Of a stretch of DNA of 64,000 bases, positions 114-58,832 are shown in pieces. A program made the position numbers and the translations under genes. The notes under the pieces are model-generated. The model worked only from the letters and a program-made list of their open reading frames with translations, was not told where the DNA came from and made no database searches. The stretch covers positions 248,001 through 312,000 of the forward strand of contig NZ_CP059182.1 in assembly GCF_014251255.1 (NCBI RefSeq). The letters are read 5' to 3'. This stretch comes from Blattabacterium cuenoti (GTDB taxonomy: Bacteria; Bacteroidota; Bacteroidia; Flavobacteriales; Blattabacteriaceae). Positions within the stretch are counted from its first letter, which is position 1; each line of letters begins with the position of its first letter.

Positions 114-3100
114 ATGAAAAACGTCAATTTTTTTATTATTACTTTATTTATTTTTCTTTCATTTTTTTCGTTTTTATTTTCTCAATCTTATACTAAAAAG
201 TATAAATGGTTTATTAAAATAAGATCGCATGATATAAATTATTATCCTATTCCTAAAAATAGATCTATTTTTACTGCCAAATCAACTTTATTAGATTTTT
301 TTGAAAAAAAAAACAATACAATTAATCCTTTTTTTTCCGATGTAGAAATCGGATATTTTTTCAATAGAAGAATAGGTTTTTATTTGAATAGTATGTTAGG
401 AATGGTTGATAATCAGAGATGGAATAAAATGGATTATTTTTTTGTGAAATTCATTCATGGAATGAATATTCATCTATTTTCAAAATATAAAATTGATCCT
501 TATTTGAGATTAGGAGGAGGATATCATCAATATAATTACGAAAATAGCATGTTAAAATTAAAAACTGACAATTCAAATTTCTATAAGTTAAATCAAAAAC
601 ATTTTGTTCTGTTTAATGGAGGATTGGGAATAAATTTTTGGATTGTTTCTAATGTGGGGTTAAATGTTCAAAGTGATTACAATTATGTTATTTCATATCT
701 TTCTAAAGACTATTTGAATTTTTGGGGACATTCTGTGGGATTAACATTTCGTTTTGGAAACAATGATGATCATTATGATGATGATTATATTAAAATTAAA
801 AAAAATGAAAAGGAAAAACAAAAAGAAAATAAAGAAATTACTGATATAGAAAAAGAAAAAAAAGAAGAAAATACTACTTCTACTACGACACTTTCTTCCC
901 CTCTTGACCTTAAAGAAAAAACACTTACTAATACTACTTCTACTACGACACTTTCTTCCCCTCTTGACCTTAAAGAAAAAAAAGAAGAAAATACTACTTC
1001 TACTACGACACTTTCTTCCCCTCTTGACCTTAAAGAAAAAAAAGAAGAAAATACTACTTCTACTACGACACTTTCTTCCCCTCTTGACCTTAAAGAAAAA
1101 AAAGAAGAAAATACTACTTCTACTACGACACTTTCTTCCCCTCTTGACCTTAAAGAAAAAAAAGAAGAAAATACTACTTCTACTACGACACTTTCTTCCC
1201 CTCTTGACCTTAAAGAAAAAAAAGAAGAAAATACTACTTCTACTACGACACTTTCTTCCCCTCTTGACCTTAAAGAAAAAAAAGAAGAAAATACTACTTC
1301 TACTACGACACTTTCTTCCCCTCTTGACCTTAAAGAAAAAAAAGAAGAAAATACTACTTCTACTACGACACTTTCTTCCCCTCTTGACCTTAAAGAAAAA
1401 AAAGAAGAAAATACTACTTCTACTACGACACTTTCTTCCCCTCTTGACCTTAAAGAAAAAAAAGAAGAAAATACTACTTCTACTACGACACTTTCTTCCC
1501 CTCTTGACCTTAAAGAAAAAAAAGAAGAAAATACTACTTCTACTACGACACTTTCTTCCCCTCTTGACCTTAAAGAAAAAAAAGAAGAAAATACTACTTC
1601 TACTACGACACTTTCTTCCCCTCTTGACCTTAAAGAAAAAAAAGAAGAAAATACTACTTCTACTACGACACTTTCTTCCCCTCTTGACCTTAAAGAAAAA
1701 AAAGAAGAAAATACTACTTCTACTACGACACTTTCTTCCCCTCTTGACCTTAAAGAAAAAAAAGAAGAAAATACTACTTCTACTACGACACTTTCTTCCC
1801 CTCTTGACCTTAAAGAAAAAAAAGAAGAAAATACTACTTCTACTACGACACTTTCTTCCCCTCTTGACCTTAAAGAAAAAAAAGAAGAAAATACTACTTC
1901 TACTACGACACTTTCTTCCCCTCTTGACCTTAAAGAAAAAAAAGAAGAAAATACTACTTCTACTACGACACTTTCTTCCCCTCTTGACCTTAAAGAAAAA
2001 AAAGAAGAAAATACTACTTCTACTACGACACTTTCTTCCCCTCTTGACCTTAAAGAAAAAAAAGAAGAAAATACTACTTCTACTACGACACTTTCTTCCC
2101 CTCTTGACCTTAAAGAAAAAAAAGAAGAAAATACTACTTCTACTACGACACTTTCTTCCCCTCTTGACCTTAAAGAAAAAAAAGAAGAAAATACTACTTC
2201 TACTACGACACTTTCTTCCCCTCTTGACCTTAAAGAAAAAAAAGAAGAAAATACTACTTCTACTACGACACTTTCTTCCCCTCTTGACCTTAAAGAAAAA
2301 AAAGAAGAAAATACTACTTCTACTACGACACTTTCTTCCCCTCTTGACCTTAAAGAAAAAAAAGAAGAAAATACTACTTCTACTACGACACTTTCTTCCC
2401 CTCTTGACCTTAAAGAAAAAAAAGAAGAAAATACTACTTCTACTACGACACTTTCTTCCCCTCTTGACCTTAAAGAAAAAAAAGAAGAAAATACTACTTC
2501 TACTACGACACTTTCTTCCCCTCTTGACCTTAAAGAAAAAAAAGAAGAAAATACTACTTCTACTACGACACTTTCTTCCCCTCTTGACCTTAAAGAAAAA
2601 AAAGAAGAAAATACTACTTCTACTACGACACTTTCTTCCCCTCTTGACCTTAAAGAAAAAAAAGAAGAAAATACTACTTCTACTACGACACTTTCTTCCC
2701 CTCTTGACCTTAAAGAAAAAAAAGAAGAAAATACTACTTCTACTACGACACTTTCTTCCCCTCTTGACCTTAAAGAAAAAAAAGAAGAAAATACTACTTC
2801 TACTACGACACTTTCTTCCCCTCTTGACCTTAAAGAAAAAAAAGAAGAAAATACTACTTCTACTACGACACTTTCTTCCCCTCTTGACCTTAAAGAAAAA
2901 AAAGAAGAAAATACTACTTCTACTACGACACTTTCTTCCCCTCTTGACCTTAAAGAAAAAAAAGAAGAAAATACTACTTCTACTACGACACTTTCTTCCC
3001 CTCTTGACCTTAAAGAAAAAAAAGAAGAAAATACTACTTCTACTACGACACTTTCTTCCCCTCTTGACCTTAAAGAAAAAAAAGAAGAAAATACTACTTC

Positions 3101-3662
3101 TACTACGACACTTTCTTCCCCTCTTGACCTTAAAGAAAAAACACTTACTATCCCAGATAATGAAAAAAATTGCTGTGAAGGAGAAGAAGATCAAGATGAA
3201 GATCGAATTCCAGATAAAAAAGATTTATGTCCTGATCAATTTGGATTAAAAAAATTTCATGGATGTCCTGATACAGATTCAGATAATATTCCAGATTATG
3301 AAGATAAATGTCCAAAAGAATTTGGAAGAAGGAAAAATAATGGATGTCCTAATCAGAATATAATTTTTAGACCTATTTTATTTAATACTGGTCAACATAC
3401 ATTATCTTCTAATTCTATTTCTATTCTTAATGAAGCAGCTGAAATTATGATAAAAAAAATTCCTAATTCAAAATTTTATATAATTGGATGCACAGATATT
3501 CATGGAAAATCTTCCTTTAACAAAACTTTAGCCATGAAAAGAGCTTCTTCCGTTTTTAAATTTTTAGTTTCTAAAGGAGTATCTCCTTATAGGATAAAAA
3601 TGAAAAGATTTATAAAATGTAAAAATAAAGGAAAACGTGTTGAAATCATTATAAAAAAATAA
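114..3662 (+). CDS. OmpA-family outer-membrane protein with a 38-copy 20-residue repeat linker
   Basis: The 1182-residue product has four parts. Residues 1-23 are a hydrophobic signal peptide ending FLFSQ/SYTKK. Residues about 24-235 look like an outer-membrane beta-barrel, with alternating aromatic strands and 'RLGGGY' and 'GLGINF' turns. Residues 250-1009 are 38 tandem 20-mers rich in Thr, Ser, Lys and Glu. Residues about 1025-1078 carry thrombospondin type-3-like Asp/Cys repeats (DQDEDRIPDKKDLCPD, DTDSDNIPDYEDKCP), followed by an OmpA C-terminal domain (about 1080-1182). That domain keeps the Thr-Asp of the DAP-binding loop (GCTDIHG) and a final KRVEI motif, with Lys where Asn-Arg usually stands. 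Family knowledge suggests it ties the outer membrane to peptidoglycan. Typical OmpA/OprF proteins are 350-450 residues, so the repeats account for the excess length. It converges on tatC across a shared terminator. Confidence 0.93.
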   Translation: MKNVNFFIITLFIFLSFFSFLFSQSYTKKYKWFIKIRSHDINYYPIPKNRSIFTAKSTLLDFFEKKNNTINPFFSDVEIGYFFNRRIGFYLNSMLGMVDNQRWNKMDYFFVKFIHGMNIHLFSKYKIDPYLRLGGGYHQYNYENSMLKLKTDNSNFYKLNQKHFVLFNGGLGINFWIVSNVGLNVQSDYNYVISYLSKDYLNFWGHSVGLTFRFGNNDDHYDDDYIKIKKNEKEKQKENKEITDIEKEKKEENTTSTTTLSSPLDLKEKTLTNTTSTTTLSSPLDLKEKKEENTTSTTTLSSPLDLKEKKEENTTSTTTLSSPLDLKEKKEENTTSTTTLSSPLDLKEKKEENTTSTTTLSSPLDLKEKKEENTTSTTTLSSPLDLKEKKEENTTSTTTLSSPLDLKEKKEENTTSTTTLSSPLDLKEKKEENTTSTTTLSSPLDLKEKKEENTTSTTTLSSPLDLKEKKEENTTSTTTLSSPLDLKEKKEENTTSTTTLSSPLDLKEKKEENTTSTTTLSSPLDLKEKKEENTTSTTTLSSPLDLKEKKEENTTSTTTLSSPLDLKEKKEENTTSTTTLSSPLDLKEKKEENTTSTTTLSSPLDLKEKKEENTTSTTTLSSPLDLKEKKEENTTSTTTLSSPLDLKEKKEENTTSTTTLSSPLDLKEKKEENTTSTTTLSSPLDLKEKKEENTTSTTTLSSPLDLKEKKEENTTSTTTLSSPLDLKEKKEENTTSTTTLSSPLDLKEKKEENTTSTTTLSSPLDLKEKKEENTTSTTTLSSPLDLKEKKEENTTSTTTLSSPLDLKEKKEENTTSTTTLSSPLDLKEKKEENTTSTTTLSSPLDLKEKKEENTTSTTTLSSPLDLKEKKEENTTSTTTLSSPLDLKEKKEENTTSTTTLSSPLDLKEKKEENTTSTTTLSSPLDLKEKKEENTTSTTTLSSPLDLKEKKEENTTSTTTLSSPLDLKEKKEENTTSTTTLSSPLDLKEKKEENTTSTTTLSSPLDLKEKTLTIPDNEKNCCEGEEDQDEDRIPDKKDLCPDQFGLKKFHGCPDTDSDNIPDYEDKCPKEFGRRKNNGCPNQNIIFRPILFNTGQHTLSSNSISILNEAAEIMIKKIPNSKFYIIGCTDIHGKSSFNKTLAMKRASSVFKFLVSKGVSPYRIKMKRFIKCKNKGKRVEIIIKK
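861..3140 (+). repeat. Tandem array of 38 x 60-bp units inside the ompA-like gene
   Basis: The period is exactly 60 bp, so copy-number changes keep the reading frame. Copy 1 is 861-920. Copy 2 (921-980) differs only in its first ten bases (acacttacta instead of aaagaagaaa). Copies 3-38 (981-3140) look identical at nucleotide level. The ten bases after the array (3141-3150) repeat the copy-2 variant, so the variant motif brackets the homogeneous block. Every unit junction carries an A8 tract. Each unit encodes a 20-mer containing ENTTSTTTLSSPLDLKE. Near-perfect identity indicates recent expansion or ongoing homogenisation. Confidence 0.98.
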
Positions 3663-3668
3663 ACTAAG

Positions 3669-3710
3669 AATTAAGAAAAAACCTCTCGATCAAGAGGTTT
3701 TTTCTTAATT
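3669..3710. terminator. Bidirectional intrinsic terminator between ompA-like gene and tatC
   Basis: Perfect 18-bp inverted repeat (3669-3686 with 3693-3710) and a 6-nt loop (cgatca). Its A-rich and T-rich outer stem gives a U-tract in either direction around the core acctct/agaggt. It lies between two convergent genes, and its right arm supplies the tatC stop codon (3705-3707). The strongest terminator seen in the window. Confidence 0.93.
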
Positions 3711-4493
3711 CTTCTTAGAAAGAGAAAAGGAAATATAAAGACTCAATTGATAAAGAATAATCAAAGGAATTAAAACAATTATTGTGCTTAAAATATCTCC
3801 AGGAGTAATTGCAGAAGCAATAATAAATATGATTAAAAAAGCATGTTTTCTATACTTTTTTAAAAAGGAATAAGATAACAATTCTATTTTTGTTAAGAAA
3901 TATATAAAAACTGGAAAAAGAAAAGTAATTCCCATAGATAATATAGAATGCATCATAAGAGATATGTAATCAGATAAATCAAATACATTTCTTGGAAATG
4001 AACTTATTTTAAAAGAATAACCAAAATAAATTAAAAACGGACATAACACAAAATAACCGAAAAAGATCCCTAATGAAAATAAAAATGTAACAATTGCAAT
4101 GATTTTTTGAGAATATTTTTTTTCTTTCTCAGAAAGAGCAGGTTTTATAAACTTCCAAAATTCATAAAAAACATAAGGAAAGGACAAGATAATTCCTCCT
4201 ATAAAACAAGTCCATACATATGTATTAAATTGACCGAATATTTTTCTATTTTGTATTTCCAAGTTTTTAGAAAAATGGAAAATGGATTTTTTTTTGAATA
4301 AAAAATTTTCTAATTTGGAAAACATGCGATAAGTAATAAAATCCGTTTTTGCAGGACCAAAAAGAATATAATCAAATAGAATATGTTTATTATTCATTAA
4401 TAAAACCATTGCTATTATAATAGCACATAGACTGTGAATCACATGTTTTCTTAATTCTTCTATATGTTCCAAAAATGGCATTTCTTTTTTCAT
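3705..4493 (-). CDS. tatC: Sec-independent protein translocase subunit TatC
   Basis: Integral membrane receptor of the twin-arginine pathway, which exports folded proteins. The 262 residues begin with the TatC N-terminal signature (FLEHIEELRKHV, including the conserved Glu). They contain the FYEFWKFIKPALSEKEKK cytoplasmic-loop motif and about six hydrophobic segments, ending with ITPGD followed by LIPLIILYQLSLY. Length is normal for the family. The loop after the first membrane helix (residues about 45-90) is Lys/Phe-rich and longer than usual. No tatA or tatB lies within the window. Its 3' end overlaps the terminator shared with the ompA-like gene. Upstream, 4494-4590 separates it from divergent ychF. 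Confidence 0.93.
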   Translation of the reverse strand: MKKEMPFLEHIEELRKHVIHSLCAIIIAMVLLMNNKHILFDYILFGPAKTDFITYRMFSKLENFLFKKKSIFHFSKNLEIQNRKIFGQFNTYVWTCFIGGIILSFPYVFYEFWKFIKPALSEKEKKYSQKIIAIVTFLFSLGIFFGYFVLCPFLIYFGYSFKISSFPRNVFDLSDYISLMMHSILSMGITFLFPVFIYFLTKIELLSYSFLKKYRKHAFLIIFIIASAITPGDILSTIIVLIPLIILYQLSLYISFSLSKKN

Positions 4494-5625: not shown

Positions 5626-6704
5626 CAAATTTTATTTTGATTAATTTCTTTTAAAATTTCAAAAATTAATTGTATAGTTTTCTCTACATCTTCTTTATGA
5701 ATCATTTCTACTGTCGTATGCATATATCTGAGAGGAATAGATATTAATGCAGATGCGACTCCTTTATTTGAATAAGCGAAAGCATCTGTATCTGTTCCAG
5801 TAGATCTAGATGAAACTAAACGTTGAAAGGAAATTTTTTTACTTTTAGCAGTATTAATAATAAGTTCTCTAAGATTTTTTTGTATTGAAGGTGCATATCC
5901 AATAACAGGACCTTTTCCACATTTAACATCTCCTTGGATTTTTTTATCAATCATAGGAGTAGAAGTATCATGTGTAACATCAGTAACTATAGCTATATTA
6001 GGTTGAATTGTATTGGAAATCATTTTAGCTCCTTTTAATCCTATTTCTTCTTGAACAGAATTTACTACGTATAATCCAAATTCAAAATTATGTTGATATT
6101 CCTTTATCATTTTTGCGACTTCGGCAATTATAAATCCTCCTATTTTATTATCTAACGCTCTAGAAACAAAATAATTCTTGTTCATAATAAAAAATTGATC
6201 AGGATAAGTTATTACACAACCAACATGAACTCCCATTTGAGAAACTTCTTTTTTATTTAAAGCACCTATATCCACGAATAGATTATCTATATTTGGGGAT
6301 TTTTCTTCTAAAAATTTTCTTGTATGAATAGCAGGCCAACCAAATATTCCATGTATATATCCGTTTTCTGTATGTATAATGACTCTTTTAGATGGAGCTA
6401 TTTGATGATCTGATCCTCCATTTCTAGATACATAAATAATTCCATTATCTGTTATATAATTCACATACCAAGATATTTCATCTGCATGTGCTTCAATAAT
6501 TAATTTATATGAAGAATTAGGATTAATTATCCCTACTGCTGTTCCATATAAATCCGTTTCTACTTTCTCTACATAAGTAGAGATGTAACTTTTCCATATT
6601 TTTTGTCCTTCATTTTCATCTCCTGTTGGAGAAAAACTATTTAAATAATTTTTTAAAAATTTTAGAGACTCTTCACTTATAGAATAAAAATCTTTTTTTT
6701 TCAT
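5604..6704 (-). CDS. M42-family metallopeptidase (glutamyl/deblocking aminopeptidase type)
   Basis: Cytosolic di-metal aminopeptidase family, often misnamed endoglucanase. Visible features are SPTGDENEG near the N-terminus, the metal-binding EAHADEISW (His73, Asp75), the bridging Asp in SRALDNKIGGF, the catalytic Glu pair in SVQEEIGLKGA and a C-terminal metal ligand in the RYMHTTVE region. At 366 residues it is full length. Its start codon overlaps the dapF stop (TCAT on +, ATGA on -, 6701-6704), indicating translational coupling with dapF upstream. The 3' end overlaps ychF by 22 nt. The likely role is turnover of small peptides; the substrate cannot be read from sequence. Confidence 0.9.
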   Translation of the reverse strand: MKKKDFYSISEESLKFLKNYLNSFSPTGDENEGQKIWKSYISTYVEKVETDLYGTAVGIINPNSSYKLIIEAHADEISWYVNYITDNGIIYVSRNGGSDHQIAPSKRVIIHTENGYIHGIFGWPAIHTRKFLEEKSPNIDNLFVDIGALNKKEVSQMGVHVGCVITYPDQFFIMNKNYFVSRALDNKIGGFIIAEVAKMIKEYQHNFEFGLYVVNSVQEEIGLKGAKMISNTIQPNIAIVTDVTHDTSTPMIDKKIQGDVKCGKGPVIGYAPSIQKNLRELIINTAKSKKISFQRLVSSRSTGTDTDAFAYSNKGVASALISIPLRYMHTTVEMIHKEDVEKTIQLIFEILKEINQNKICHLLNRK

Positions 6705-54124: not shown

Positions 54125-55461
54125 ATAGATTGAGCAATCATAATCCCATCTTTTTCATCTATTTCTTTTAAAATGACATCTTGTAATGTATTTATAAATG
54201 TTGGAATAAAAGAAATTTTTGTTCTAATATAATTTTCTGTATATCCATACAAATATTCATTATTAGAGTTTTTTTCAAACAATACCGTTTTTTTTGTATG
54301 AATTTGTTTTTCACAAAAAAAACGATATTTTCTTTTTGAAAGAATTCTTAGTATTTTGTTTCGTTTTTTCTGTATTTTTTTAGAGACGTGATCCCCTTGC
54401 TGGGTATTATAATACGATTTTGTATTCGGTCTATGAGAATAGGTAAATATGTGAAAAGATGAAATATCTAGTTTTTTCATGAAATGATAAGTTTCTAAAA
54501 AATATCTATGTGTTTCTCCAGGAAATCCCACAATAACATCTGAACCTATATAAGCATTTGGTATTAAATGACGTATTGTTTTTACTTTTTCTTGATAAAG
54601 CTCTTTTCTATAACGTCTCTGCATTTTTCCCAAAATATAATTACTTCCAGATTGGAAAGGAATATGAAAATGAGGAACAAAATGTTTACTTTTTGACAAA
54701 AATTCAATACATTCATTTTTTAACAAATTAGGTTCTATTGAAGATAACCGAATTCTTCCCATTTCTATTTCTTTTATTTGATTGATTTCCTGTATCAAAT
54801 CAAAAAAGGTATATGTCCGACGTTCATTTTTATGAAATATTTTTTTTCCATAGTCTCCAATGTTAATTCCTGTTAATACAATTTCTTTAACTCCTTTTTT
54901 TAAAAGATATTTGATATTTTTTAATATAGTTTCTATACTCTCAGAACGAGAAGGACCTCTTGCTATAGGAATGACACAATAACTACACTTGTAATCACAT
55001 CCATCCTGGATTTTTAAAAAAGAACGAGTTCGATATCCAATAGAATATGATGAAAAATAAGAATAAGAACATGTTTCCTTTGAAAACAGAATCTTTGCAG
55101 GAGAATTTTTTTTTGAAAAATTGATTTGATTCAAATAATCTATGATATGAAATTTTTCTTCATAACCTAACACGAGATCAACTCCGATTATTTCAGAGAC
55201 TTCTTTAGGATAAAGTTGAGCATAACATCCTATTGCAATAACAAAAGCTTTTTCGTTTTTCCTCATAGCATAACGGACAATACACTTAAATTCAGTCTCC
55301 GCATTTTTTGTGACAGAACAACTATTGATCACATAAATATCTGCAAACCCATTGAAAGAAACATGTTCATAATTCAAATCAGAAAATTTTCTTGCAATCG
55401 TAGAAGTTTCTGCGTAATTTAGTTTACAACCTATCGTATAAAATGCAACTTTTTTTTTCAT
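54103..55461 (-). CDS. mtaB: tRNA t6A37 methylthiotransferase MtaB
   Basis: Radical-SAM enzyme converting t6A37 to ms2t6A37. N-terminal MTTase domain with Cys ligands (FYTIGCKLNYAET, VINSCSVTKNAE, IAIGCYAQL). The radical SAM motif is DGCDYKCSYCVIP, followed by ARGPSRS, DVIVGFPGET and a C-terminal TRAM-like domain. The opening YTIGCKLN points to MtaB rather than MiaB. 452 residues. It lies 49 nt downstream of the peroxiredoxin gene. Confidence 0.93.
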   Translation of the reverse strand: MKKKVAFYTIGCKLNYAETSTIARKFSDLNYEHVSFNGFADIYVINSCSVTKNAETEFKCIVRYAMRKNEKAFVIAIGCYAQLYPKEVSEIIGVDLVLGYEEKFHIIDYLNQINFSKKNSPAKILFSKETCSYSYFSSYSIGYRTRSFLKIQDGCDYKCSYCVIPIARGPSRSESIETILKNIKYLLKKGVKEIVLTGINIGDYGKKIFHKNERRTYTFFDLIQEINQIKEIEMGRIRLSSIEPNLLKNECIEFLSKSKHFVPHFHIPFQSGSNYILGKMQRRYRKELYQEKVKTIRHLIPNAYIGSDVIVGFPGETHRYFLETYHFMKKLDISSFHIFTYSHRPNTKSYYNTQQGDHVSKKIQKKRNKILRILSKRKYRFFCEKQIHTKKTVLFEKNSNNEYLYGYTENYIRTKISFIPTFINTLQDVILKEIDEKDGIMIAQSIHEMNST

Positions 55462-55510
55462 AAATTAGATTTAGATTCTATAGATAGACTCCGCAGATAA
55501 GCATATTTGA

Positions 55511-56152
55511 TCATTTTGAGTTTGAGGAAAAATAATCTATAATTCCACTATGATTAGCTTTGATAGCACGTTTTCCTTTTGTCCAATTTGCTGGACATAC
55601 TTCTCCTTTTTTTTCATAATACTGAAGTGCATCTATCATACGAATTGCTTCATTGACATTTCTTCCTAAAGGAAAGTCATTAATTAAAAGATGTCGTATA
55701 ATTCCTTCTTTGTCTATTAAAAACAATCCTCTATAAGCAATAAGTTCTCCCGTTGCTTTCCATTCCTCATGATTATGATTGCAAATCCAATCTCCAGATA
55801 AAACTCCATAATTATGGGAAATAGTTTTATTTACATCAGAAACAATAGGATAAGTAACCCCTAATATTCCTCCTTTTTCTTTTGGCATTTGCAACCAAGT
55901 CCAATGAGATTGTTCTGTATCCGTAGAAATCGCAATAATTTGTACATTTCTTGATTCAAATTCCTTGATTTTTTCTTGAAATGCATAGATTTCTGTAGGA
56001 CAAACAAAAGTAAAATCTTTTGGGTAGAAAAAAAGTAAAACGTACTGACTCCCTTTAAATTGTTCTAAAGTAAAATTGTGGACAATATCTTTTCCATTCA
56101 ATACTGCGCTAGATGTAAAACTAGGTGCTTTTTTTGCAATTAATGTATTCAT
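55511..56152 (-). CDS. ahpC: Typical 2-Cys peroxiredoxin (AhpC/TSA family)
   Basis: Reduces peroxides. Peroxidatic Cys51 sits in FYPKDFTFVCPTEI and resolving Cys186 in GEVCPANW; the Thr of the PxxxTxxC motif (TFVC) is present. 213 residues with the C-terminal extension typical of dimeric 2-Cys Prx. AhpC versus thiol-peroxidase partner use cannot be settled, since no ahpF or reductase is adjacent. Confidence 0.92.
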   Translation of the reverse strand: MNTLIAKKAPSFTSSAVLNGKDIVHNFTLEQFKGSQYVLLFFYPKDFTFVCPTEIYAFQEKIKEFESRNVQIIAISTDTEQSHWTWLQMPKEKGGILGVTYPIVSDVNKTISHNYGVLSGDWICNHNHEEWKATGELIAYRGLFLIDKEGIIRHLLINDFPLGRNVNEAIRMIDALQYYEKKGEVCPANWTKGKRAIKANHSGIIDYFSSNSK

Positions 56153-56236
56153 TTTTATCTAATTTTAGATGACGAATTTACCAAAATTCTTATTAAGAGT
56201 CAAAAAGATAATGATGATTGGGTTTATTTGTAAATT

Positions 56237-58126
56237 TCATACATACCTATGTAATTTTTTATTCAGTTCATTTTTTCTATTTGTTAGATGCATTATTTTT
56301 TTTATAATATGATTTCTCTTTTCATCATCACTTTCTATATTTTTTTGAAAATGCATAATTTCTTGTTGAATTGATTTCAAAATATATTGTAATTGATATC
56401 TCAATAACATGTCCGTGAGATATTTGTCTATGTTCTCTTTTTCTGAAGAAACTTCAATTCCTTTTTTATCCCATTTGGATAATGAATAACAGGATTTTTT
56501 ATTCTGTTTTTTTGAAATTTTTAATTTTCCATTATTTCTATTGCATATTTTATCAAATAATTTCTGATTAGAATCCAAAGCAAAACGTAACCCATGGCAT
56601 TCAAAAATATGCAATATTTCTTCAATCACTGTAATTTCTTGTTTTCCTTTTTTTATTATTTGATTTCCATGATTTAAAATAAACTGAATCAACTTTTCTT
56701 CCATGAGAAGAAGGTTGTTCTTAGGACTCCTAAGAACAACCTTCTTCTCATTCAAAAATTTTCTCTTTTTCTTTTTAAGACTTCTTATTCTTTGAAATTC
56801 AGAAATTAGAATTTCTTGACGAAGTTCTAATACTTTTGAAGCTTCTTGTAAATATAATTCCTGTTGGATCACATTAGATATTTTTGAAATACTATTCAAA
56901 ATATTTATAACTAAAAATGATTTTTTAATTGGATCATCCTTGTGAAATTTTTCATATACTTTTTTTTTGAAAGAAACAAAATTATAACTATTTTTTTCTA
57001 TAAAATCTTTCAATTGAGAAGAGGAATATTTTTTTGAGAGAGAATCTGGATCTTCTCCATCAGAAAGAAATAATATACGAAGATTCATTTCTTGTTCCAG
57101 AAACATATTTATTCCTCTTAAAGAAGCTTGAATCCCAGATTTATCTCCATCATAAAATAGAACGATAGTTTTCGTAAATTTTTTTATCAATAAGATTTGA
57201 TCAACAGTAATAGCAGTTCCAGAAGAGGAAACAACATTTTTTATTCCAGATTGATGTAAAGAAATGACATCTGTATATCCTTCTACTAAATAACAAAAAT
57301 TTTCTTTTAAAATGGCTGTTTTTGCTTGTAATAAGCCATATAAAATTTTGCTTTTTTGAAATAAATTACTTTCAGATGAATTTAAATATTTTATAATAGA
57401 TCGGAAAGAAGAACTTATTATATTCCTCTTCCTCCTCCTACTATTATTATTATTACTACTACTCTCAATCGTTCTTCCACCAAATCCTATAACCATTCCT
57501 GATAGATTATGTATTGGAAATATCACACGTTTACGAAAACAATCGAAATAATTATTCGATTTTTTATTCAAAACCGTAAGACCATATTTTTTTAAATCAC
57601 CTATTTTGAATCCTTTTTTTAAGGCTTTTTCTGTAAAAAAACTCCAAGAAGAAGGTGCATAACCTAATTCAAATTCATGAATTATTTTCATATTAAATCC
57701 TCTTTGTTTTATCAAATAACTCAATCCCTTTTCTTTTCCTTCTTTTGTAAACCACAATTGATTGATAAAAAAACGTTTTGCATAATCTTGCATTAAGTAT
57801 AAATTTTTTTTATGGTCTCTCTTTTTAAGATCTGTTTCTTCATGAATATTTATCTCGTATTTTTTAGCTAAAAAATGTAATGATTCGACATAAGTGAAAT
57901 GTTCGTGTTCCATAAGAAAAGTTATAATATTCCCACCTTTTCCAGAACTAAAATCTTTCCATATTTTTTTTGTAGGAGAAACGATGAGAGAAGGCGTTTT
58001 TTCATTAGAAAATGGACTCAGTCCTCTATAATTGATTCCACTTTTTTTTAAGGAAACAAAATCTCCTATAACTTCTTCAATGCAGGAAACTGAAAATATT
58101 CGTTTTATAGTTTCTTTAGAAATCAT
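56237..58126 (-). CDS. dnaG: DNA primase DnaG lacking the canonical zinc ligands
   Basis: Makes RNA primers at the fork. The N-terminal domain retains NEKTPSLIVSPTKK, but the CHC2 zinc ligands appear replaced: CPFH reads Ser37-Pro-Phe-Ser40 and HCFGC reads KDFSS (57-61). I recall similar loss in flavobacterial DnaG, so this is probably a lineage trait. The core is intact: VIGFGGRTIE, the TOPRIM part VEGYTDVISLHQ, LFYDGDKSGIQASLRG and GEDPDSL. The 629 residues end in a Lys-rich helicase-binding region. A perfect palindrome lies in the linker (residues about 459-474). Confidence 0.94.
   Translation of the reverse strand: MISKETIKRIFSVSCIEEVIGDFVSLKKSGINYRGLSPFSNEKTPSLIVSPTKKIWKDFSSGKGGNIITFLMEHEHFTYVESLHFLAKKYEINIHEETDLKKRDHKKNLYLMQDYAKRFFINQLWFTKEGKEKGLSYLIKQRGFNMKIIHEFELGYAPSSWSFFTEKALKKGFKIGDLKKYGLTVLNKKSNNYFDCFRKRVIFPIHNLSGMVIGFGGRTIESSSNNNNSRRRKRNIISSSFRSIIKYLNSSESNLFQKSKILYGLLQAKTAILKENFCYLVEGYTDVISLHQSGIKNVVSSSGTAITVDQILLIKKFTKTIVLFYDGDKSGIQASLRGINMFLEQEMNLRILFLSDGEDPDSLSKKYSSSQLKDFIEKNSYNFVSFKKKVYEKFHKDDPIKKSFLVINILNSISKISNVIQQELYLQEASKVLELRQEILISEFQRIRSLKKKKRKFLNEKKVVLRSPKNNLLLMEEKLIQFILNHGNQIIKKGKQEITVIEEILHIFECHGLRFALDSNQKLFDKICNRNNGKLKISKKQNKKSCYSLSKWDKKGIEVSSEKENIDKYLTDMLLRYQLQYILKSIQQEIMHFQKNIESDDEKRNHIIKKIMHLTNRKNELNKKLHRYV
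56704..56750. repeat. Perfect 47-nt palindrome inside dnaG
   Basis: Arms 56704-56726 and 56728-56750 are exact reverse complements (23 bp each) around a single central C. Outer ends read tgagaagaagg...ccttcttctca. It is fully coding on -, in the linker between the TOPRIM core and the C-terminal domain. Too long and perfect to be expected by chance. Confidence 0.95.
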
Positions 58127-58172
58127 AATTATTTTGATTGAATCAAAATTGAAAATAATAATAATAAATCAA

Positions 58173-58832
58173 TTATTTATTGATTTCTAATTTCATTTTA
58201 TGAATAATTTTTTTTGGATTAGAATTAGAAAAAATGGTAGTTCCTGCTACTAATATATCTGCTCCATTTTTGAATAATAAAGAAGCATTTTCTAAATTGA
58301 CTCCTCCATCCACTTCTATCAATGCAGAAGAGTCTTTTTTTAATATTAAGTCTTTAGTATCTTTTAGTTTTTGATACGTTTGACTAATAAATTTTTGTCC
58401 GCTAAACCCAGGATTTACGCTCATTATCAAAACAAAATCTATATCTTTAATGATATCTTGCAAAAGAAAAACTGGAGTATGTGGATTGACTGCTACTCCG
58501 ACCTTCATCCCATATTCCTTAATAGAAAAAATAGTTCTATTTAAGTGAATACAAGCTTCGTAATGAACATGTAAATGATCTGCTCCACATTCTTTAAATT
58601 GTTCTATATACCGTTCCGGGTGTAGAATCATTAAATGGACATCTATAGGTTTGGATGCATATTTTTTGACATATTTTATAAATAATGCTCCAAAAGAGAT
58701 ATTAGAAACAAAAGAAGAATCCATAATGTCAATATGGAACCAATCCGCTTCACTTTTATTCAACATTTCTATATCACGATATAAAAAAGCTAAATCTGCT
58801 GAAAATAGAGATGGAGCTATAATTTTTTTCAT
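58173..58832 (-). CDS. rpe: Ribulose-phosphate 3-epimerase
   Basis: Pentose-phosphate enzyme interconverting ribulose-5-P and xylulose-5-P. TIM barrel with APSLFSADLAFL, the metal-binding FHIDIMDSSFVSNISFG, VHLMILHPERYI, LIMSVNPGFSGQKFI and EVDGGVNLENA. Full length at 219 residues. It lies 46 nt upstream of dnaG and 22 nt downstream of fabI, all on -. Confidence 0.97.
   Translation of the reverse strand: MKKIIAPSLFSADLAFLYRDIEMLNKSEADWFHIDIMDSSFVSNISFGALFIKYVKKYASKPIDVHLMILHPERYIEQFKECGADHLHVHYEACIHLNRTIFSIKEYGMKVGVAVNPHTPVFLLQDIIKDIDFVLIMSVNPGFSGQKFISQTYQKLKDTKDLILKKDSSALIEVDGGVNLENASLLFKNGADILVAGTTIFSNSNPKKIIHKMKLEINK

Follow-up and report, generated by a model that had tools for sequence, protein, structure and literature searches.

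The dnaG gene of a Blattabacterium genome carries a long perfect palindrome, which is probably a mutational scar. Judging from the sequences compared here, the hypervariable linker that precedes the C-terminal part of the primase would have contained a short inverted repeat with imperfect arms, which template switching during replication would have made perfect, and the result would have been tolerated. The genome (G000) is that of a cockroach endosymbiont and consists of a single contig of 632,233 bases. The DNA analyzed, which we refer to as the window, is a stretch of 64,000 nucleotides of this contig.

The palindrome consists of two perfect 24-bp arms around a one-base centre and occupies 49 nt (positions 56703-56751 of the window), as determined from the sequence with a repeat search and a script. 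An initial reading made from the sequence alone (referred to below as the sequence-only reading) had reported 23-bp arms at positions 56704-56750. The perfect pairing and the one-base centre were confirmed, while the arm length and the span had to be corrected. The same reading had placed the palindrome inside the dnaG coding sequence, and this is indeed so: all 49 nt (codons 459-475) are in frame and enclosed by an intact 629-aa ORF. The product of this ORF matches the Pfam families Zn_ribbon_DnaG, DNAG_N and Toprim above the cut-off. The coordinates of the individual features are given in Table 1.

Table 1. Positions of the dnaG palindrome, its parts and the surrounding gene in the window
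Feature	Position	Strand	Basis
dnaG (DNA primase) coding sequence, intact	56237..58126	-	629 aa ORF, no internal stop; Pfam matches
24-bp gene-upstream arm, in codons 459-467	56728..56751	-	Best match of 45 relatives is G054 (17/24 bases)
One-base centre of the palindrome	56727	no strand	Sequence and script
24-bp gene-downstream arm, in codons 467-475	56703..56726	-	Compared with 45 relatives
Codons 461-469, variable linker, pLDDT <50 between two predicted helices	56720..56746	-	Relatives and model

Among perfect inverted repeats of the 64-kb window (loops up to 20), the dnaG palindrome is the longest. We used an order-3 Markov model (three replicates; runs of N excluded from palindrome counts) as a control for the Blattabacterium sequence analyzed, which comprises 2,462,293 bases (N not counted) of 49 genomes. 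The control sequences contained no perfect palindromes with arms of at least 18 bp and loops of up to 30. Set against the observed arms of 24 bp, this result led us to reject a chance origin.

To place the palindrome in its protein context, we considered both the relatives and a structural model. Comparison with the dnaG genes of 45 relatives revealed that the linker is hypervariable across the genus. In the AlphaFold2 model of DnaG (alignment of 23 sequences; overall mean pLDDT 74.9, pTM 0.53), helices 437-462 and 471-486 are joined by a stretch (residues 461-469) with pLDDT values under 50. Low pLDDT alone is no proof of linker disorder, because values below 50 also extend across most of residues 32-64, which belong to the conserved zinc domain. 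The earlier placement of the palindrome in the primase linker, which is variable among the relatives, holds. The part of DnaG beyond the linker we take to be the helicase-binding C-terminal domain. The same gene also has a simple-sequence tract (window 57424-57470; CTCCTCCT..ATTATTATTATT..ACTACTACT on the plus strand, coding SSSNNNNSRRRKR), which falls within another region of pLDDT below 50 (residues 223-246).

Rickettsia palindromic elements are repeated mobile elements. They are referred to in PMC6649704 and resemble the dnaG palindrome in being read in frame within a protein gene. The sequence-only reading had considered the insertion of a small palindromic element and had suggested two ways to check it, namely aligning dnaG of related genomes (inserted or conserved) and searching the genome for the arm sequence. 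A mobile element of the Rickettsia type, inserted in frame, would be compatible with the reading frame of the palindrome and with the tolerance of the linker. However, the linker is of ordinary length: measured from codon 440 to shortly after the palindrome, it comprises 117 nt, compared with 93-165 nt (median 120) in the 45 relatives, and the codon alignment with one of them (G008) is gap-free within the palindrome. The alignment of related dnaG genes thus revealed no added length, and the palindrome is absent from the 45 relatives. Moreover, the arm has no second place in the whole genome at up to three mismatches, no exact match in viral contigs and no blastn match in plasmids. Thus, unlike Rickettsia palindromic elements, the dnaG palindrome is single-copy and adds no length. 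Coding palindromes of the genus with arms of at least 18 bp also differ from each other in sequence, except for a pair within G054 and a pair common to G012 and G042. We rejected the insertion on linker length and copy number and regard a mobile element as exceedingly improbable; on the sequence evidence, the palindrome is not an inserted element.

We then asked where the arms might have come from. The dnaG gene was recovered from 46 of the 49 genomes of the genus, that is, from G000 and 45 relatives. The remaining three were left out owing to a spurious match (G048, E 6.2) or to no dnaG place among the matches listed (G045 and G062). The palindrome of G000 is absent in all 45 relatives examined. 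Within codons 430-500, perfect arms of at least 10 bp (loop up to 20) are present in six of the 46 genes, with arm lengths of 24 (G000), 13 (G054), 13 (G052), 12 (G016), 11 (G008) and 10 (G018). The palindromes of G052, G008 and G018 fall outside the G000 site, the unrelated 12-bp one of G016 touches its edge, and that of G054 sits on it. G054 is also the nearest relative by DnaG identity (84%; 78% for G008). Tree support for G000 and G054 as sisters is 0.65, and that for the trio with G008 is 1.0.

The palindrome of G054, TCATAGGAGGAGG-GATTCT-CCTCCTCCTATGA, has 13-bp arms and the core TAGGA...TCCTA in common with that of G000. The two differ by one double compensatory change (CTTAGG/CCTAAG in G000 versus CATAGG/CCTATG in G054). 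In addition, one arm of G054 contains AGG three times and the other arm a matching CCT three times. The arms of G000 and G054 thus change together, which fits the prediction of arm-to-arm copying, i.e. template switching. Pairing is not conserved by compensatory change across the 45 relatives; the same core with one compensatory pair is found in G054 alone. The automatic alignment of G000 and G054 puts the downstream arm at 25% identity.

Individual arms were also matched to the relatives separately. For the gene-upstream arm, best matches outside G054 comprise 11-15 of 24 bases in the other 44 relatives, and the mean over all 45 is 12.8, compared with 12.3 for shuffled arms. At the position of the gene-downstream arm, mean identity to the 45 relatives is 59% for the outer 14 bases and 38% for the inner 10. 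When all 24 bases of this arm are considered, the mean best match is 13.3 compared with 12.0 for shuffled arms, and for 20 of the 45 relatives it coincides with the homologous position. Based on these arm-by-arm matches, the arms seem to have separate older roots, AAGAAG... and ...CTTCTT, which would have been partly pairable. At the homologous 49 bases the relatives form on average 9.4 of 24 pairs, while windows along the G008 dnaG average 7.3; G008 itself has 13 pairs at the site. We looked for a genus-wide imperfect palindrome at this dnaG site and did not find it, as most relatives are near background pairing.

The proposed course of events is as follows. The common ancestor of G000 and G054 would have borne a short imperfect inverted repeat in the dnaG linker, with the core TAGGA...TCCTA and the flanks AAGAAG...CTTCTT. 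During replication one arm may have served as template for the growing 3' end, after this end had folded back or changed strands, and the arms would thereby have become exact reverse complements. With the frame kept and only the variable primase linker altered, such a change could have been tolerated. It may then have been fixed in a small, drift-dominated endosymbiont population, and the palindrome would have no dedicated function. As expected of a quasipalindrome template-switch product, the perfect arms are far beyond chance and no foreign sequence has been added. The sequence-only reading had listed a template switch perfecting an imperfect repeat among its possibilities. This is the one best supported by the 45 relatives and by recurrence in other genes (see below), while the imperfect ancestor is something that we infer, because the homologous stretch is barely palindromic in most relatives (9.4 versus a background of 7.3 pairs). 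Our confidence is also lowered slightly, because the full downstream arm matches relatives barely better than shuffled arms do. The sister support of 0.65 for G000 and G054 and the 25% identity of the downstream arm in their automatic alignment count against this reading too.

A variant of the same explanation, falling within its probability, concerns dating: the perfect palindrome may have arisen by template switching already in the common ancestor of G000 and G054, the outer arms of G054 having changed later. The shared core and the similar upstream arm (17/24) speak for this variant, but two strains cannot decide polarity, and we consider it possible rather than likely.

An alternative to a scar is a selected RNA hairpin. 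A 23-bp stem in the dnaG message might delay ribosomes once the catalytic core has been translated and before the C-terminal part is reached, or might protect the transcript or lead to its cleavage, so that pairing would be under selection. As RNA, the palindrome stretch is predicted to form a very stable 23-pair hairpin (-39.7 kcal/mol, z -9.1), with none of 200 shuffles as stable; the corresponding values for DNA are -24.8 and z -7.8. In the protein, the hairpin site lies towards the end of the catalytic part, flanked by two predicted helices, and G054 retains a hairpin at this place that differs by one double compensatory change. However, among the 45 relatives only the palindrome of G054 resembles it in position and core, the one at the edge in G016 being unrelated. 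No terminator-like sites with a T-run were found in 55400-58200, and the palindrome stretch has no Rfam family match. Finally, other coding palindromes occur in unrelated genes, which favours a mutational cause. We therefore consider a selected hairpin unlikely. A putative regulatory role of the dnaG palindrome, in the earlier proposal a transcript hairpin acting on dnaG or downstream expression, is unsupported by these comparisons, the hairpin being unconserved in the genus.

The recurrence of perfect palindromes was assessed in a survey of the genus, covering the same 2.46 Mb from 49 genomes with loops of up to 30; palindromes within open frames of at least 100 codons were considered coding. 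With arms of at least 16 bp there are 52 perfect palindromes (41 coding), compared with a Markov mean of 2.3 over all sequence. The numbers are 26 (19 coding) for arms of at least 18 bp, with none in the Markov control, and 10 (8 coding) for arms of at least 22 bp. The longest coding palindromes have arms of 24-27 bp. One case deserves caution. In G054 (L143), a run of N in one frame has an identical 46-bp perfect palindrome on each side (5850-5895 and 5964-6009), possibly an assembly break at a palindrome. Both are included in the 19 coding palindromes with arms of at least 18 bp and in the eight perfect ones with 22-bp arms, where they may represent one palindrome or none.

The G054 pair also bears on whether the dnaG palindrome is an assembly or sequencing artefact, produced by a fold-back chimaera or mis-joined reads, since it shows identical palindromes next to a run of N. 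Against an artefact in dnaG, reading frame and homology are maintained on both sides, the length is as in relatives and there is no N nearby. Furthermore, a fold-back chimaera would run on into inverted flanking sequence. We judge an artefact to be very unlikely.

For comparison, we used 20 stretches (399,820 bases, 0.40 Mb) from eight genomes of the same order, 1.9-5.4 Mb in size. They contain six perfect palindromes with arms of at least 16 bp, none of them coding. At the Blattabacterium rate, about 3 (arms of at least 18 bp) and 6.7 (arms of at least 16 bp) coding palindromes would be expected. This absence is weak evidence for arms of at least 18 bp and somewhat stronger for arms of at least 16 bp; the sample is small and its composition differs (36.5% G+C versus 25.7% in Blattabacterium).

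Orthologues were compared for 25 of the 41 coding palindromes with arms of at least 16 bp, namely those with at least two G+C, an N-free frame and an orthologue spanning the flanks. Of these 25, 16 are free of indels, and for 12 at least 75% of the positions are already paired in the orthologue. Pairing in orthologues is raised by shared ancestry, and in individual cases the change may have run either way. In some palindromes, e.g. those of G012/L173 and G024/L197, one arm is closer to the orthologues than the other; this arm-by-arm inspection covered those of the 19 palindromes with arms of at least 18 bp that have two or more G+C in the arm (all but six). A general test of 'one arm conserved, one replaced' on the 25 palindromes gave mean identities of 0.75 for the lower arm, 0.87 for the higher arm and 0.82 for the rest of the gene. 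We discarded this test, since sorting arms by identity would produce a gap of this kind on its own.

We also examined the distribution of mismatches. For 22-bp arms with at least four G+C, there are 8, 3, 5, 14 and 42 cases with 0-4 mismatches, compared with 0, 0, 0, 1 and 18 in the Markov control. The surplus at exactly zero is based on few cases, which include the G054 pair beside the run of N. For arms of 18, the corresponding series is 13, 9, 33 and 121 versus 0, 1, 7 and 80, with a smaller surplus at zero. The genus also has many close direct repeats (68 with arms of at least 14). Local repeats are thus generally common in Blattabacterium and not only inverted ones; slippage by itself cannot make the inverted ones.

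Template-switch events of this kind have already been described elsewhere. According to PMC6357072, a mutation at a quasipalindrome universally makes the palindrome perfect, both in bacteria and in yeast, and fold-back of the nascent 3' end is countered by RecBCD; a paper on ExoI aborting template switching is cited there as well. The lacZ quasipalindrome reporters of E. coli (QP5/QP6; PMC6357072, PMC7202029) offer a bacterial parallel, in which an imperfect inverted repeat is made perfect by one arm templating the other. The 18-bp reporter is of the same order of arm size as the 24 bp in dnaG, whereas the dnaG event is deduced from a comparison of species. In yeast, template-switch changes with homogenization of the arms are reported for 39 protein genes (PMC8604942). 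These multinucleotide changes also lie in protein-coding DNA and alter neighbouring amino acids; in contrast to yeast, the relatives of our endosymbiotic bacterium are far more diverged and single events are less well resolved. A perfect stem can come from one event, as stated in PMC8794818.

The nematomorph mitochondrial genes described in PMC6649704 carry perfect coding palindromes, with template switching named as a possible cause. As in Blattabacterium, perfect inverted repeats are dispersed over the coding genes of a small genome, are gained or lost between species and are in surplus over slightly imperfect ones. However, arms in nematomorphs reach 284 bp, compared with 24-27 bp for the longest coding ones in Blattabacterium, and both arms encode conserved protein there as opposed to a variable linker in dnaG. 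As for the genus itself, a Blattabacterium is listed among the genomes of highest inverted-repeat frequency (PMC10434271), and PMC6128925 describes the loss of many repair genes and evolution under drift. We found no paper on template-switch palindromes in Blattabacterium in the open-licence literature. While the kind of event is known, the lineage-wide pattern in Blattabacterium coding genes is worth a proper count.

To see whether the palindromes are accompanied by changes in repair, we looked for relevant genes in 25 Blattabacterium and 15 same-order genomes. RecJ was detected in none of the 25 and in 13 of the 15, and the ExoVII large subunit in none and four, respectively. SbcD, likewise undetected in the 25, is present in two of the 15 above the cut-off and in six at E 0.001. 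ExoI was detected in none of the 40 genomes, whereas MutS and a RecB/AddB-type nuclease domain were found in all 40. The results for RecJ, SbcD and the ExoVII large subunit fit repair-gene loss as a cause of the palindromes. Because of the uniform distribution of ExoI, MutS and the RecB/AddB-type domain, and because SbcD and ExoVII went undetected in most of the 15 other genomes as well, we regard this as no more than a correlation. In G007, G018 and G020, one or two in-frame TAA codons interrupt the mutS match, and mismatch repair may be decaying in some Blattabacterium lineages.

More speculatively, Blattabacterium could be a bacterial counterpart of the nematomorph mitochondrion. Unusually frequent template switching would keep making and perfecting inverted repeats in essential coding genes, the nucleases that remove fold-backs having been lost, and the palindromes would be self-maintaining passengers. 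We put this forward tentatively and consider it less likely than not. One palindrome of this kind is a curiosity, and more weight attaches to the recurrence of such palindromes in coding genes of a genus in which RecJ, SbcD and the ExoVII large subunit went undetected. The recurrence points to short-range template switching as a process that measurably contributes multi-residue changes to the proteins of a reduced genome. It further suggests that related sequences be compared before a perfect hairpin in coding DNA is taken for a regulatory signal. With the many Blattabacterium genomes already sequenced, events, their dates and gene losses could be counted on a tree.

Several other repeats were observed along the way. 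The window contains a direct repeat at 870-981, two exact 52-nt copies separated by an 8-nt gap, inside a large ORF (114-3662). A near-perfect palindrome (21-bp perfect arms, loop 6) is situated between convergent genes at 3666-3713 and overlaps the minus-strand ORF 3705-4493 at its 3' end. It has A- and T-runs on both sides and, by sequence, looks like a two-way terminator. Five of the sampled genomes (L162 1353-1426, L182, L205, L209 and L214) share an intergenic hairpin whose core is AAAAAATAGTGTC...GACACTATTTTTT or closely similar, and its perfect arms reach 35 bp in G005.
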